DNA of 40,124 nucleotides, taken from positions 1 through 40,124 of IMG/VR virus record IMGVR_UViG_3300025769_000286; one strand, written 5' to 3'. This document shows positions 28,753 to 35,998 of the stretch, piece by piece (the first letter of the stretch is position 1; every line of letters begins with the position of its first letter). The notes below the pieces were generated by a model that worked only from the letters and a program-made list of their open reading frames with translations, searched no databases and had not been told where the DNA came from. Source of the DNA: a virus. The translations under genes were made by a program, and so were the position numbers.

Positions 28753-30207
28753 TTATTTATCTTGTTTTTTATCTAGCTCAGATTTTAATTCTTGTATTGC
28801 TTTTACTAGTATGGGTACTAATTTACCATAACTCATTTCTAATTTATCAGGGTTTGCATCGTATATTAATCTTAAGGTATCATCGTCGTGAACCTGAACT
28901 TCTTGTGCAATAAATCCAAAATCTTTTTTGCCTTTATTAGCGCTAACAATTTCGGAAACAGACGGGCCTTCTTTCTTTTCAGAATGAGGTAAAAAAGTTT
29001 TTTGCTCTACCCTGTTATCCCATACAAATTCTCTAGGTTGTAATTTACTTACAAAATCTAAACCGTATGTTAAATCTTTTATGTCTTTTTTATCACGCTC
29101 ATCAGACAACGAAGTAATAGATGTTACCGCTGCTCTAATCGCCGTAATACTTGCGTTACCTAAAGTGATTTCATTGCTTACAGTAGCTGAACTCGCAGCT
29201 GCGTTGTATCCAATTACTATATTGTTGTCTCCGGTTGTTAATGCATCGCCTGCAAATGCCCCTATTAAGGTATTTTCTTCACCATTAGTTACCGCATATC
29301 CAGCTCTGTGTCCAAAATATGAATTTTTACCACTTCCTGATTGGGTATAACCAGCTTCGTAGCCAACCACTGTTGTCCAGACCTCGTCTAATTCATCTAA
29401 ATTTCTTAAAGCTTGATAACCAATTGCTGTAACGAATTCATTACTACCTCTGTAATGAGCTTCGTAACCAATGGCAACGCATCCTGTTTCAGCTCCCTGG
29501 TATCCTGCTCTGTAACCAATCGAAACAGCGCCTGTTGAAACACTTGCTTGAGAGTTAGCTAAACTACCTATAGAAACTGCTCTTTCACCGCCTGTTACTT
29601 GATCACCAATACAAACGCTATTACTTCTATTGTTTCCGCCTGCTGCCCAACCTACAATGGTGTTGCTCGATCCGCCTGAAATATCTTCTCCAGCTTCATG
29701 TCCAACCGCTGTATTTTTACTACCACTTGATGCGGTTCTACCAGCTTCATTTCCAATAAACGTATTGTCTGAGCCTGTAGATACTACACCGGCTCTATAC
29801 CCTACAAAAGTATTTTCATTAGACGTATTTGCGTTTCCTGCTTCAAACCCAATAAAAATATTTTGAGTACCAGGGCTTGTTACATTAATACCGCTAGCAG
29901 TATCTGTAACGTTTACGGGTACCGAAAGTGTTTGAAATGAAGGATTTGCTCCTGCTCCATTTGAAGTTAATACTTGTCCTGCTGTACCTATCGCAAGATT
30001 TGTTATAGTATTGGTATCTGTAAATACAGGTAGTGCATATTGTACTCCTGATCCGTCTATTGATCCACCAGTTGCAGATACAGTGTTAATAATGTCTTGC
30101 ATTGTATAAATCTCTCTTTGAGATTGAAGCTCTGCTGATCCTCTGTCAGTTGTATCTACTGTTGATGATACTGTATGAAATTTCTGTCCGTTTGGAATGA
30201 TTGCCAT
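28753..30207 (-). CDS. Tail fibre with YadA-like repeats and S74 chaperone domain
   Basis: This 484-aa protein has three parts. Residues 1-95 are the attachment domain shared with the neighbouring fibre. Residues about 115-350 are repeats of the form NTxIGxxAG (GNEAGRTASSGSKNTAVGHE and variants), the left-handed beta-roll type known from YadA-like heads. Residues about 365-484 form an S74 intramolecular chaperone: SDERDKKDI near 367, then KKDFGFIAQEV and LEMSYGKLVPILVKAIQEL. In this family the chaperone trimerises and cleaves itself off at the conserved Ser. The product is likely a trimeric fibre or spike for host binding. Confidence 0.85.
   Translation of the reverse strand: MAIIPNGQKFHTVSSTVDTTDRGSAELQSQREIYTMQDIINTVSATGGSIDGSGVQYALPVFTDTNTITNLAIGTAGQVLTSNGAGANPSFQTLSVPVNVTDTASGINVTSPGTQNIFIGFEAGNANTSNENTFVGYRAGVVSTGSDNTFIGNEAGRTASSGSKNTAVGHEAGEDISGGSSNTIVGWAAGGNNRSNSVCIGDQVTGGERAVSIGSLANSQASVSTGAVSIGYRAGYQGAETGCVAIGYEAHYRGSNEFVTAIGYQALRNLDELDEVWTTVVGYEAGYTQSGSGKNSYFGHRAGYAVTNGEENTLIGAFAGDALTTGDNNIVIGYNAAASSATVSNEITLGNASITAIRAAVTSITSLSDERDKKDIKDLTYGLDFVSKLQPREFVWDNRVEQKTFLPHSEKKEGPSVSEIVSANKGKKDFGFIAQEVQVHDDDTLRLIYDANPDKLEMSYGKLVPILVKAIQELKSELDKKQDK
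29923..30207 (-). repeat. Fibre 5' direct repeat, copy 2
   Basis: About 285 bases that encode the attachment domain of the 484-aa fibre are nearly identical to the matching 5' end of the next fibre gene at 31261-31545. Differences are scattered, mostly at third codon positions. The pair could support recombination that deletes or swaps a fibre gene. Confidence 0.85.
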
Positions 30208-30228: not shown

Positions 30229-31545
30229 TTATGCGTTTTCTAATGTTGTAACTTTAGCTGATAATTCTTGAATTGCTTTTACAAGTATTGGCACCAGTTT
30301 ACCATAACTCATTTCTAATTTATCAGGATTTTCGTCATATACCAATCTTAATGTATCGTTGTCTAGTTCTTTAACTTCTTGAGCTATAAATCCAAAATCT
30401 TTTTTACCTTTATTTGCACTAAAGTATTCAACTTCTACTAGATTTCCATCTTCATCTTTTTCAGTTTTAATTTCAGCTCTATTGTTCCAAACAAATTTTC
30501 TAGGTTTTAATGCCATTACCGTGTCTAATCCTGTGTCTAAATCAACTATTTCTGTTTTATCTCTTTCATCTGATAAAGCAGTTATAGAAGTTACAGCACA
30601 TCTTAACACACTAACACTTGAATTACCTAAAGTAATTTCGTTACTAACTGATGCTGAAGTTGCGGCAGCGTTATAACCTATAATAGTATTATTGCTACCG
30701 GTAGTTAAATCATTGGTGCCAGTAGCTCCGGCTTTACCACCTAAAATTGTATTATGTATACCTGATGAAATTTTCCAGCCAGCATCGTAACCTACACCCA
30801 CGTTAAATGGATCTGAGCTTGGGGTTGAAAGAGCTAAAGCTCTATGACCAACCGCAACACTTCCATCTCTATTATTGTTATTTTCTAAAGCACTATCCCC
30901 AATAGCTACATTATCTTCACCTGATGTCATTGCAAAACCTGCATTTCTACCAATAAGTACATTTGCTCGACCTTGGAAATTGTTAAATCCAGCTGCTTCA
31001 TATCCTATAATTACATTATAATCTCCAAGAGTCATTGCATCTGCAGCTTTACTTCCTATTATAACATTTTTTTCCGCATTAGTTATACTTTTACCAGCTT
31101 CATAACCTATTACAACATTATTATTTACGTCATTATTTGGTACATTTTGAAGAGCTTGAAATCCTAAACTTGTGTTACCAAAAACTCCAGCTGGAAAATT
31201 AAAGGTTTCAGCTCTAACTATTCTATCAGTACCATCTACAAAGGGAACGTATGCACTAAGTGATAGTGTTTGAAATGAAGGATTAGCTCCCGCTCCATTT
31301 GAAGTTAATACTTGTCCGGCTGTGCCTATTGCAAGGTTGGTTATAGTATTAGTGTCTGTAAATACAGGTAGTGCGTATTGTGCTCCTGATCCATCAATTG
31401 ATCCGCCGGTTGCAGATACAGTGTTAATAATGTCTTGCATTGTATAAATCTCTCTTTGAGATTGAAGCTCTGCTGAACCTCTGTCAACAGTGTCTACTGT
31501 TGATGATAGTGTGTGAAATTTTTGTGCTACTGGAATTATTGCCAT
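30229..31545 (-). CDS. Tail fibre with YadA-like repeats and S74 chaperone domain (paralogue)
   Basis: This 438-aa protein has the same build as the fibre just downstream. It has an attachment domain at residues 1-95 differing at only a few positions, NxxIGxxAG beta-roll repeats at about 115-310 (VVIGYEAGKSITNAEKNVII) and a C-terminal S74 chaperone (SDERDKTEI near 326, KKDFGFIAQEVKEL, LVPILVKAIQEL). The conserved Ser for self-cleavage is present. The two ends are much more alike than the middle, as expected of duplicated fibres diverging for host range. A TATATTTG promoter element lies 30 bases upstream. Confidence 0.85.
   Translation of the reverse strand: MAIIPVAQKFHTLSSTVDTVDRGSAELQSQREIYTMQDIINTVSATGGSIDGSGAQYALPVFTDTNTITNLAIGTAGQVLTSNGAGANPSFQTLSLSAYVPFVDGTDRIVRAETFNFPAGVFGNTSLGFQALQNVPNNDVNNNVVIGYEAGKSITNAEKNVIIGSKAADAMTLGDYNVIIGYEAAGFNNFQGRANVLIGRNAGFAMTSGEDNVAIGDSALENNNNRDGSVAVGHRALALSTPSSDPFNVGVGYDAGWKISSGIHNTILGGKAGATGTNDLTTGSNNTIIGYNAAATSASVSNEITLGNSSVSVLRCAVTSITALSDERDKTEIVDLDTGLDTVMALKPRKFVWNNRAEIKTEKDEDGNLVEVEYFSANKGKKDFGFIAQEVKELDNDTLRLVYDENPDKLEMSYGKLVPILVKAIQELSAKVTTLENA
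31261..31545 (-). repeat. Fibre 5' direct repeat, copy 1
   Basis: This is the partner of the direct repeat at 29923-30207, in the same orientation about 1.3 kb away. It encodes residues 1-95 of the 438-aa fibre, including GSAELQSQREIYTMQDIINT, which is identical in both proteins. Confidence 0.85.
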
Positions 31546-32819: not shown

Positions 32820-32953
32820 TATCCTTGTCCTGTGTATAATTTTTTGTACAATTTACTACTTTTTAATTTACTAGTTTTAGTCTTAGCGTGTATGCCAGGT
32901 CTTTTTTTTCTAGCTTTCTTATACTCAATTGGATTTATTATTTTTCTTGCCAT
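32819..32953 (-). CDS. Small highly basic protein, 44 aa
   Basis: The sequence starts MARKIINPIEYKKARKKRPG and continues with repeated KTSKL/KSSKL (residues about 26-35) before ending YTGQG. It is fully basic with no Cys. Both its start and its stop overlap neighbouring genes as TAATG (with the holin gene upstream and the 52-aa gene downstream), which supports its being translated. Function unknown. Confidence 0.7.
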   Translation of the reverse strand: MARKIINPIEYKKARKKRPGIHAKTKTSKLKSSKLYKKLYTGQG

Positions 32954-33411
32954 TACTTTTTAAATATACTTATTGCTTTTTCGCTCGACCTTCCTCCGAA
33001 ATAAGCTAAAACCACCGCCATCATCACATTCTCAAATGTTGAATTCCAATTATCATGTATTGTGAACGGTATAGTTTCAACACTATCTAATATTCCAGCA
33101 AATGAAAAAACTACTATACACCATATTAACACTAATGGTCGTACATTTTTAGACATCCATGAATCAGACATTGAGTCTGCTTTCCATCTTGAAGTGATTG
33201 CCTCTAGCTCTTTGTTTTGTTGTTCATATATTAATTGCTGTAATTTAATTTTATCTTCAGCCGGAGCATCTGATTTAGTTATTTCAGCAATGGCTTCTTG
33301 TGGACTTGCAACACCCTGCAATATATTTCCTAGTGTAGGATTTATTACGGACGCCGCGCCAAATAAAAGCTGCCCAACTGTTGTGTCTTTAAAAGGTTTT
33401 TTTGAACTCAT
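32953..33411 (-). CDS. Holin, 3TM (gene-transfer-release) type
   Basis: This 152-aa protein opens with a soluble helical part (VGQLLFGAASVINPTLGNIL, DKIKLQQLIYEQQ). RWKADSMSDSWMSKNVRP then leads into membrane helices at about 91-107 (LVLIWCIVVFSFAGIL) and 127-140 (VMMAVVLAYFGG), with a basic end. The 'RWxAD..SD.W.SKNVRPL' stretch before the membrane part is the pattern of the Holin_3TM family, which forms lesions in the inner membrane at lysis. It follows the M15 endolysin gene with an ATGA overlap. Confidence 0.85.
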   Translation of the reverse strand: MSSKKPFKDTTVGQLLFGAASVINPTLGNILQGVASPQEAIAEITKSDAPAEDKIKLQQLIYEQQNKELEAITSRWKADSMSDSWMSKNVRPLVLIWCIVVFSFAGILDSVETIPFTIHDNWNSTFENVMMAVVLAYFGGRSSEKAISIFKK

Positions 33412-33869
33412 ATTACTTTATACTTTGTTTTACCATCCTCTTTATAAGCCTTCAAACATCTGTTTCTGTTTTCATCTTTTGACACGTATGAAACATGGAT
33501 CCAGTTGGGATTCATGTCTGTTCCAAACTCCCATATCAATTGGTCAAAATCTAAATTTTCTCGTATGTACATAAACATTTCTGCATTAGACTTATACCCA
33601 TACACATCATCCAAATCAATTGCTTGACCTTTACAATGTTGGCTGGAACTTACCCCGCCAATAGCTTCATTCAAAGATGGCGACCTAAAAAAAGAATTTA
33701 CTTTTATAGGGCCTCCAACCCAAGATCTTAAAGGCTCAAACACCATTTCCGCTGTAGTGGCCATGGCGGCTATTTGAGTAGGATTTGGCGTATTGTCAAT
33801 TTTTTTCCTTTTAGCTGTATTGGAGTGTATAGCTTCTGCGTATGTTATATGCTCACTGATTCTATTCAT
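33408..33869 (-). CDS. Endolysin, peptidase M15A-type (D,D- or L,D-carboxypeptidase fold)
   Basis: This 153-aa protein shows the M15 zinc-peptidase pattern. SSSQHCKGQAIDLD gives His78 and Asp85 (SxHxxGxAxD), Glu114 (LIWEF) is the likely catalytic acid and His125 (NWIHVS) is the third zinc ligand. Upstream are FEPLRSWVGGPIKVNSFFRS and the LNEAIGG loop of the fold. It would cut peptide bridges of host peptidoglycan at lysis. It has no signal peptide, so it needs the holin encoded immediately downstream, with which it overlaps by four bases. Its length matches the single-domain family. Confidence 0.9.
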   Translation of the reverse strand: MNRISEHITYAEAIHSNTAKRKKIDNTPNPTQIAAMATTAEMVFEPLRSWVGGPIKVNSFFRSPSLNEAIGGVSSSQHCKGQAIDLDDVYGYKSNAEMFMYIRENLDFDQLIWEFGTDMNPNWIHVSYVSKDENRNRCLKAYKEDGKTKYKVI

Positions 33870-34096
33870 AAATTTAATTTTAATATTATGTAAAATACCG
33901 CCGGTATACTAGAAAAAATAAAATCCATAAACTCCGGATTTCCTTTACCCATCCACCAATCGTAAATAATTTCTTTAGCTGCATACAAAGTTACGGAAAA
34001 AATAAATCCATAAATTGACAACACGTAAACTAAAGGGAATGCTGTGATGCCTCCCCAAAAGAAGTGTAATAGCTTGTCATTAGGTATCCTGTTCAT
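33866..34096 (-). CDS. Small membrane protein of the lysis cassette
   Basis: This 76-aa protein has about two or three hydrophobic segments (FFWGGITAFPLVYVLSIYGF, FIFSVTLYAAKEII, FIFSSIPAVFYIIL) and the pattern KLLHFFWG...KEIIYDW..GKGNPEFMDFIF. The H-x-x-WG, KEI-x-D and D-F arrangement resembles small phage membrane proteins with a VanZ-like look found in lysis regions. It may be an accessory holin or envelope-disrupting protein. The start is coupled to the beta-barrel gene by TAATG and its end overlaps the endolysin start by four bases. Confidence 0.65.
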   Translation of the reverse strand: MNRIPNDKLLHFFWGGITAFPLVYVLSIYGFIFSVTLYAAKEIIYDWWMGKGNPEFMDFIFSSIPAVFYIILKLNL

Positions 34097-35370
34097 TACA
34101 ATCTAATGTTTAAGCCAATTGATGACTGATAAATTTCAGAATCCCAAAACTTTGTGTATTCTCCTTCAATAAACACGCCTAAACTTTTAGAAAGTTTCCA
34201 TCCAAATGATATGCCTGCCTGCCAATCCTCCCACTGCTCTAACTCAGAATCTTGTCTCAATCCTCCTAACCCCCAATTGTTTCTATTTAGATAACTAAAA
34301 TCAACATCTCCTTGAACGTATTTGTGATAAGGTAATAAATAAGAACCGTAGGCGTGAAGCCAGAAATTTCGCTTGTAATGATACGCATCAAAACCTATAA
34401 TTGGACTAACCACGCCAAATGCATCTAACTCATCCCAAACTTCATGGTTAAACCTGTTCATTAAGTCAGCAAAAACAGTGTCACGAAATTCTAAATCTGT
34501 ATGAGCCACGATTTCTCCATTAGGATCTATCCAATACCAGTCGGACACTTCGTTTCCAAACTGGTCTTCTTGAGTATAATAAATATCATCATAACCGTAT
34601 TCAAAACCTAACGTATACCAAGGATTTATAATTTGTCCGTCTTGATTAGTTTCATTCAACCATATTTCAACTGGATTGTATCCGTAAGGGCGCTCATGAG
34701 TCCTATAGATTGCACCGGCAGAAATACTAAATTTTTTACCTATAGGAAGCTTTGCTCTTACTTCGGCTGATTTATAATTAAAATCTACCTTTCCTTGTTT
34801 TCTACTTTCTAGCTTGACTACGTGGTATTGACCGCTATGCTTAATAAAATACCTGTGGTTTGTAAATATCTCATCTCTTGATCTTTCTTTTTCATAATGA
34901 ATGGTGTATTCTAACCCTTTTACAGGAGAGTTTGGTGCTGACAAACCAATGTTATTTTCAGTACCATCATAGTAATGCTTTCCTTTTATTTCATAATCGA
35001 ACCTAGCAAGCTTTCGTATTCCTACGCCATACCTGTAATCAAAATCATAGTAGTCGGTTCCGTCAACCACCACGGGCGCTGAATACAAATTGCCGTTTGG
35101 ATTTGTTCTAACGAAGTAATCTTTTGGATTTTCTTTTGGGTTATCAATATCACCAGCTACATATATAGTGGAGTATTTGAGTATATCTTTGTACACATCC
35201 TCAAAAAAATTTTTTACTTTATATTTTTTTACAATTTTATTTTCAAGTTTTTTTGAATCATCAATAACTTGAGCTTGTGCTCCCAAACTAAAAAACATTA
35301 ATACAATAAATATCATTATATATATTAATGCGTTGGTAGCAAACTTTTCGGTTTTTTCTTTTCTATTCAT
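34096..35370 (-). CDS. Predicted outer-membrane beta-barrel protein, secreted
   Basis: This 424-aa protein opens with a basic segment and a hydrophobic stretch (IYIMIFIVLMFFSLGAQAQV), a Sec signal peptide with likely cleavage after AQA near residue 34. The mature part has alternating polar and aromatic strands (FDYRYGVGIRKLARFDYEIK, KFSISAGAIYRTHERPYGYN, WLHAYGSYLLPYHKYVQGDV) and ends in a last strand IYQSSIGLNIRL. Aromatic girdles and a final strand ending in a hydrophobic residue are the marks of outer-membrane beta-barrels. This is unusual cargo for a phage and lies in the envelope/lysis cassette beside a secreted thioredoxin-like protein. It might alter the host surface (for instance to block superinfection or change transport) or help lysis; neither is shown. 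Confidence 0.75.
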   Translation of the reverse strand: MNRKEKTEKFATNALIYIMIFIVLMFFSLGAQAQVIDDSKKLENKIVKKYKVKNFFEDVYKDILKYSTIYVAGDIDNPKENPKDYFVRTNPNGNLYSAPVVVDGTDYYDFDYRYGVGIRKLARFDYEIKGKHYYDGTENNIGLSAPNSPVKGLEYTIHYEKERSRDEIFTNHRYFIKHSGQYHVVKLESRKQGKVDFNYKSAEVRAKLPIGKKFSISAGAIYRTHERPYGYNPVEIWLNETNQDGQIINPWYTLGFEYGYDDIYYTQEDQFGNEVSDWYWIDPNGEIVAHTDLEFRDTVFADLMNRFNHEVWDELDAFGVVSPIIGFDAYHYKRNFWLHAYGSYLLPYHKYVQGDVDFSYLNRNNWGLGGLRQDSELEQWEDWQAGISFGWKLSKSLGVFIEGEYTKFWDSEIYQSSIGLNIRL

Positions 35371-35372
35371 TT

Positions 35373-35696
35373 TTAAAATTTACTTTCTATTATTTGTTCA
35401 ATTTTTTGTTTTAATTGTTCTATCGAATCTTCAGGCAATGTTAATGAAATACCTGATTCGATTCTAAAATACTCTTCTTCATTATAAAATAATATAATGG
35501 TGGGAATATATTTAACGTTATGTTTTTTGAATATATCTTGTGAGCTTGACATGTATATAGTCTTAGTGTCGTATCTAAAACCTTTCAATGAAATTTCTTT
35601 TTCTTTTACGAAAGAAGCACTAAATTGAACTATTTCAATATCAGTTTGAGCAAAACTGACACATGTCAGGAAAAAAGCAATTATTGCACATCTCAT
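35373..35696 (-). CDS. Secreted thioredoxin-like protein lacking CXXC
   Basis: This 107-aa protein has a short signal peptide (CAIIAFFLTCVSFAQ, cleavage near residue 17). EIVQFSASFVKEKEISLKGF then looks like the first strand and helix of thioredoxin, with SASFV at the place of the CXXC active site. HNVKYIPTIILFYNEEEYFR supplies the cis-proline loop (Pro65). With no Cys pair it cannot act as a normal thiol oxidoreductase, so binding or structural use is more likely. It ends 2 bases before the beta-barrel gene, and both are predicted to be exported. I recall similar proteins in marine Bacteroidota phages. Confidence 0.7.
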   Translation of the reverse strand: MRCAIIAFFLTCVSFAQTDIEIVQFSASFVKEKEISLKGFRYDTKTIYMSSSQDIFKKHNVKYIPTIILFYNEEEYFRIESGISLTLPEDSIEQLKQKIEQIIESKF

Positions 35697-35998
35697 CTCT
35701 GTTTGCTGATTTCATATAATCTTTCATCAATTTTGTTGAGTTGTTCTTTAATTTCTTCTACTGATTTTTCTAGCCCTAAAACTTTTTCGTTTGTGTTAGA
35801 TATTTCAGATCTAACCAGCTCGTCTTTATACGACCATTCAATTTTAGAGACTTCAGGTTCTGGCTTTTCCATAGCAAGAGCTATGTCTGATTTTAATACA
35901 AAATACATACTTGTAAGTGAAACAACGCCGCCAACAATAAGACCTATAGTTTTTAAGTCTAATGTTACGTTTGTGTCTTCACTTATTTTCTGTGCCAT
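35693..35998 (-). CDS. Small membrane-anchored coiled-coil protein
   Basis: This 101-aa protein has one hydrophobic helix (LKTIGLIVGGVVSLTSMYFV, about residues 15-36). A charged coiled coil follows (NEKVLGLEKSVEEIKEQLNK, about 66-95). Placement in the lysis cassette and a single N-terminal anchor with a coiled coil resemble inner-membrane spanin-type or accessory holin proteins. It could equally be a scaffold for the envelope proteins encoded next. It overlaps the thioredoxin-like gene start as ATGA. Confidence 0.6.
   Translation of the reverse strand: MAQKISEDTNVTLDLKTIGLIVGGVVSLTSMYFVLKSDIALAMEKPEPEVSKIEWSYKDELVRSEISNTNEKVLGLEKSVEEIKEQLNKIDERLYEISKQR

Follow-up and report, generated by a model that had tools for sequence, protein, structure and literature searches.

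A conserved viral trio of envelope-directed proteins with a cysteine-less thioredoxin fold is accessory within one phage lineage

The window analysed in this work is the whole of the 40,124-bp IMG/VR virus record IMGVR_UViG_3300025769_000286, classed as linear, which is probably a fragment of a podovirus genome of about 60 kb; a relative, G001, measures 59,949 bp. The terminase of the window displays 72% identity to that of MW202828 and about 45% to those of the Flavobacterium phage elemo records. On the minus strand, genes with overlapping or abutting frames run from 35998 to 32953 and constitute one operon. It begins with cc (35693..35998), which encodes 101 aa with one N-terminal transmembrane (TM) segment and a C-terminal coiled coil, and whose gene overlaps that of a secreted, 107-aa thioredoxin-like protein (trx-like, 35373..35696). 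After 2 bp follows the gene of a secreted 424-aa protein, a predicted outer-membrane beta-barrel with a C-terminal BAM-type beta-signal (34096..35370), which overlaps by 1 bp a gene for a 76-aa protein with two hydrophobic segments (33866..34096), found in only part of the relatives and matching no family. An M15-family endolysin (33408..33869) and a holin (32953..33411; phrog_3427 holin, 3.9e-18) complete the operon, as context outside the trio. A sequence-only reading had described the two adjacent ORFs at 34096-35696 as a pair in which both proteins carry signal peptides; the ORFs and, by reading of the N-termini, the signal peptides are present as described, but the unit is a trio that includes the overlooked cc. 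Elsewhere in the window, two adjoining genes (28753-30207 and 30229-31545) encode proteins with a near-identical N-terminal segment (MAIIP-QKFHT-SSTVDT-DRGSAELQSQREIYTMQDI), related chaperone-like C-terminal ends and differing middles, probably diversified tail-fibre paralogues.

The barrel family was recognised neither by Pfam nor by PHROGs in profile searches. Aligned members are 58-96% identical to the window copy, the highest value being that of locus L002, carried on G001, and the comparison of these two copies indicates strong purifying selection (dN 0.020, dS 0.43). Signal peptides were read from more than 30 N-termini of the family; these are unrelated in sequence among the relatives, while the mature protein is conserved. 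With signal peptides throughout the relatives, a virion or tail protein reading was rejected. The terminal strand, SSIGLNIRL, follows the pattern polar-x-G-x-x-hydrophobic-x-hydrophobic, which has a chance of about 0.6% per position and was found in 31/31 aligned members. The AlphaFold2 model of the putative barrel is of low confidence (pLDDT 57, pTM 0.52), yet its best fold matches in the PDB are outer-membrane beta-barrels (NanC, 1.6e-5; porin 2por, 6e-5), with TM-scores of 0.2-0.5 against such barrels. Hydropathy alternation in the predicted strands exceeds that of shuffles (p 0.019) and adds modest evidence, the strands being taken from the same weak model. The barrel features first noticed in the sequence are supported in part, the closed barrel itself being a prediction. 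The accompanying remark that phages seldom encode full outer-membrane barrels was somewhat overstated, as BFVD holds other phage-encoded barrels, the best match there being A0A516LKJ4 (E 1.5e-22, 24% identity).

The trx-like protein, with a signal peptide by reading of its N-terminus, is likewise under strong purifying selection (dN 0.023, dS 0.30, window vs L002). Its window copy alone matches PF00085 weakly (E 0.037, below the cut-off), while 24/25 diverse members match this family, the best at 1.1e-7 and some above the curated cut-off, the long member L081 among them (29.2 bits vs 23.5). Furthermore, the family profile retrieves PDB thioredoxins at 1e-6 and better; the structure model of the protein is of very low confidence (pLDDT 43). 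The CXXC motif is absent from all 209 distinct relatives (164 + 45). The replacement had been placed at SASFV; these residues (26-30) form the WAxWC-like segment that precedes the site, and the residues equivalent to CXXC are V30-K33 (VKEK), preceded by F29. Among the relatives, the Trp-CXXC site is mostly substituted by F-N-x-x-N in the longer proteins and mostly by W-N-x-x-N in the divergent branch described below (branch 2). The cis-Pro, correctly noted before as retained (P65 in the window), is invariant together with the next Thr in the aligned families. The protein resembles PF00085 thioredoxins in its fold and cis-Pro, and differs from them in lacking CXXC and in being secreted and viral; the natural reading of these sequences would be a redox-inactive binding fold.

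The cc protein displays a TM segment and a heptad pattern, with a predicted inner-membrane, N-in topology. To assess the association of the three genes, each protein was searched separately and loci flanked by 3 kb or more in both directions were retained. All three genes were present in 56/56 barrel-anchored, 46/46 trx-like-anchored and 44/48 cc-anchored loci, counts that are descriptive, given that the loci are phylogenetically non-independent and the three samples overlap. The conserved co-occurrence of barrel and trx-like genes expected from the earlier pairing was thus observed. Nevertheless, the most faithful companion of trx-like is cc, since their pairwise distances correlate at 0.83, compared with 0.47 for trx-like and barrel and 0.44 for a trx-like and endolysin control. 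In 169/169 non-redundant loci cc and trx-like share a strand and overlap or adjoin each other, the overlap measuring 4 bp or 1 bp in 108. At L253, L254, L267, L268 and G405, the stretch covered contains this couple but no barrel, and the 71-kb record of L268 holds no barrel of this family anywhere; the notion of thioredoxin and barrel as a fixed pair finds no support in this form. We infer that the three proteins belong to one physical complex across the envelope. As a separate observation, a lipoprotein family of about 145 aa was found at varying insertion places in the same cassettes at 20 loci (e.g., L025:8244-8687, L028:7315-7758 and L029:7083-7526), and is absent from the window.

The trio is carried on hundreds of IMG/VR contigs and hardly ever in cellular genomes, and the hosts of these marine viruses are Bacteroidota-type bacteria. 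Within the order of a Flavobacteriaceae MAG, matches were obtained in 3/396 genomes, two of them through contigs already known as trio carriers and the third carrying the trio too; a cellular gene caught by chance was consequently rejected. The matching genome contigs come from MAGs, with a Woesearchaeota or Maricaulis label on some of them, and presumably consist of binned or mis-binned phage DNA. No credible relative of barrel, trx-like or cc was found by tblastn in 50,697 phage records, and no description of the set was found in the literature searched.

Regarding the genomic surroundings, an endolysin lies within 4 kb of the set in 69 of the 79 well-flanked loci of the window's own branch (branch 1), belonging to M15 in 65 and to Amidase_2 in 4, and was undetected in the other 10. 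When the scan was anchored on the endolysin, with 4 kb on both sides (n=43), the whole trio was found in 18 loci, part of it in 6 and none in 19. From the latter, 12 carry a window-type terminase (64-78% identity) and, where covered, a window-type portal, and have no lipoprotein substitute near the endolysin or holin. Searches of whole records found the barrel in none of the 12 same-lineage records, MW202828 or elemo NC_055854, and the trx-like gene in only one of them, G405, in which cc and trx-like lie about 10 kb from the endolysin and holin. As several of the records are only short pieces, single absences carry little weight; firmer are the complete circular MW202828 and the 41.5-kb G413. 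Since phages of the same lineage retain endolysin and holin without the trio, the set is accessory and not an essential part of the lysis machinery. Two relatives encode proteins in which an N-terminal TM segment is combined with a C-terminal part resembling beta hairpins with an aromatic or basic tail: L040:4644-5399, which matches DUF6808, and L054:15506-16129 (MW202828). The latter, encoded directly upstream of an M15 endolysin in a relative without the trio, could be an alternative envelope-spanning protein.

A divergent branch of the family, in large phages, was reached through the barrel relative L281 on a MAG contig, which led to at least 541 further loci (branch 2). Of the 52 loci flanked by 2 kb or more in both directions, 39 have both cc and trx-like in the 4-kb flanks. 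At all 52, a gene of about 1000 aa lies near the barrel, encoding a signal peptide and GCTDPxAFNYDPxA-type repeats; it is usually directly upstream, often with a 4-bp overlap (e.g., L283:979-3963, L304:1008-3935 and L308:1023-4004, with about 70 more ORFs in L282-L361). The three such proteins run against Pfam contain a PF18962 Type IX secretion system (T9SS) sorting domain above the cut-off. One or two PF18962 genes were found in each of ten large records (120-246 kb), and the terminase present in six indicates that these are viruses and not host chromosomes. No sorting-domain cargo was detected in the window, in the 60-kb relative G001 or in any branch-1 locus. At L337, the module adjoins replication and ribonucleotide-reductase-like genes instead of lysis genes. 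Two further observations concern this branch: a 63-aa lipoprotein gene overlaps both the sorting-domain and barrel genes in L356:3753-3944, L358:3753-3944 and similar loci, and one record, IMGVR_UViG_3300030098_004828 (245,646 bp; L358 and L360), carries two barrel and sorting-domain gene sets.

These surroundings bear on several possible functions. From its operon, the trio was at first favoured as a spanin-like device, in which an inner-membrane coiled coil, a periplasmic adaptor and an outer-membrane barrel would disrupt the outer membrane after the endolysin cuts the wall. The single operon of overlapping genes that the trio forms with endolysin and holin in the window, the endolysins adjoining most branch-1 loci and the PG_binding+Amidase_2 proteins beside the set in some branch-2 loci all agree with such a role, as does the layout of cc, whose TM segment and coiled coil recall an i-spanin. 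A weak match to an Rz-like PHROG (E 0.023) was seen in 3/15 cc members. A motif scan of the window and the 60-kb relative found no lipobox lipoprotein on the coding strand of the cassette, and no credible unimolecular spanin with an N-terminal lipobox and a C-terminal TM segment. According to one survey, Bacteroidetes phages use unimolecular spanins only (PMC12596118), and flavobacterial isolates with annotated unimolecular spanins have been described (PMC8776804). The lack of a credible spanin in the 60-kb relative speaks for the trio in this role; the absence of a lipobox component, together with the barrel and trx-like protein, sets the trio apart from Rz/Rz1. The endolysin-anchored scan and G405 demoted this reading, as same-lineage phages keep endolysin and holin with neither trio nor nearby lipoprotein, and cc and trx-like are found without a barrel and apart from lysis genes; with branch 2 tied to T9SS-type cargo as well, we consider a spanin unlikely. 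The accessory status and the frequent place beside holin and endolysin would also suit a regulator of lysis timing, with trx-like and cc acting on the holin and the barrel as an outer sensor, so that superinfection delays lysis. The T4 antiholin RI, which is periplasmic, offers a precedent, but some copies of the set lie well away from the holin or next to replication genes, and this role appears very improbable.

Branch 2 raises the alternative of surface display through T9SS, in which the barrel would help to place or anchor a phage secreted protein while cc and trx-like assist in the periplasm, branch 1 having retained the module without cargo. The constant proximity of the sorting-domain gene to the barrel in branch 2, their frequent overlap and the recurrence of such genes in all ten large viral records speak for it. 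Domains of the PF18962 type are, on our own reading of the family, presumably type A cargo. In host genomes, the gene of a PorP/SprF shuttle barrel commonly comes after that of a type B cargo (PMC12618676, PMC9143113), an arrangement that the branch-2 gene order resembles, whereas type A cargo is handled by the host PorV (PMC12618676). The barrel, moreover, has no Pfam match to PorP/SprF and no FadL-type protein among its top fold matches, and no cargo was detected in any branch-1 locus; display as the function of the module is rated as improbable. A broader version, a trans-envelope machine that in large phages would work with the host T9SS to put the phage-made protein of about 1000 aa on the surface of the infected cell, is regarded as doubtful.

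With the integration of these findings, we tentatively favour the trio as an accessory, moron-like module for envelope remodelling in Bacteroidota phages. In the proposed mechanism, cc would sit in the inner membrane and hold trx-like in the periplasm as a binding, non-redox adaptor; the couple would contact the phage barrel, or a host outer-membrane protein where no barrel is encoded, and this contact would change outer-membrane display or admission late in infection. The benefit might be that superinfection is prevented and that progeny is not wasted through re-adsorption to debris or to cells already infected. By analogy, superinfection exclusion is the most plausible benefit; a change in nutrient uptake may be another role. 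The comparison is with T5 Llp, a periplasmic protein that acts on the FhuA barrel in superinfection exclusion (PMC9586334). What the two share is a periplasmic protein of phage origin with an outer-membrane barrel as its possible target, but Llp is a small lipoprotein working on a host barrel, whereas in the trio the barrel is supplied by the phage, together with a thioredoxin-fold protein and a predicted inner-membrane partner, and the exclusion function of the trio is putative. Lom/Ail-type proteins and phage porins are also phage-borne outer-membrane barrels, which have no sequence match to the present one and are not fixed in a trio. Two observations weigh against the favoured reading: predicted regions outside the strands are as conserved as the strands (0.82 vs 0.84), unlike fast-changing surface loops; and the trio lies mostly inside the branch-1 lysis operon, a position unnecessary for a factor that acts in exclusion alone. 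As for the earlier proposal that the pair remodels the host envelope with a redox-dead thioredoxin as the partner of the barrel, its general role is retained, given the accessory status and the T9SS-type cargo of branch 2, and so is the loss of CXXC; the pairing is not, as the closest partner of trx-like is cc.

If the trio remodels the envelope, it would add to the known phage envelope modifiers a three-protein design with a redox-dead thioredoxin, and would offer an entry to mutual control and exclusion among phages that infect the Bacteroidota, which abound in the sea. Furthermore, the sorting-domain protein of branch 2 makes the use of host Type IX secretion by phages directly testable.
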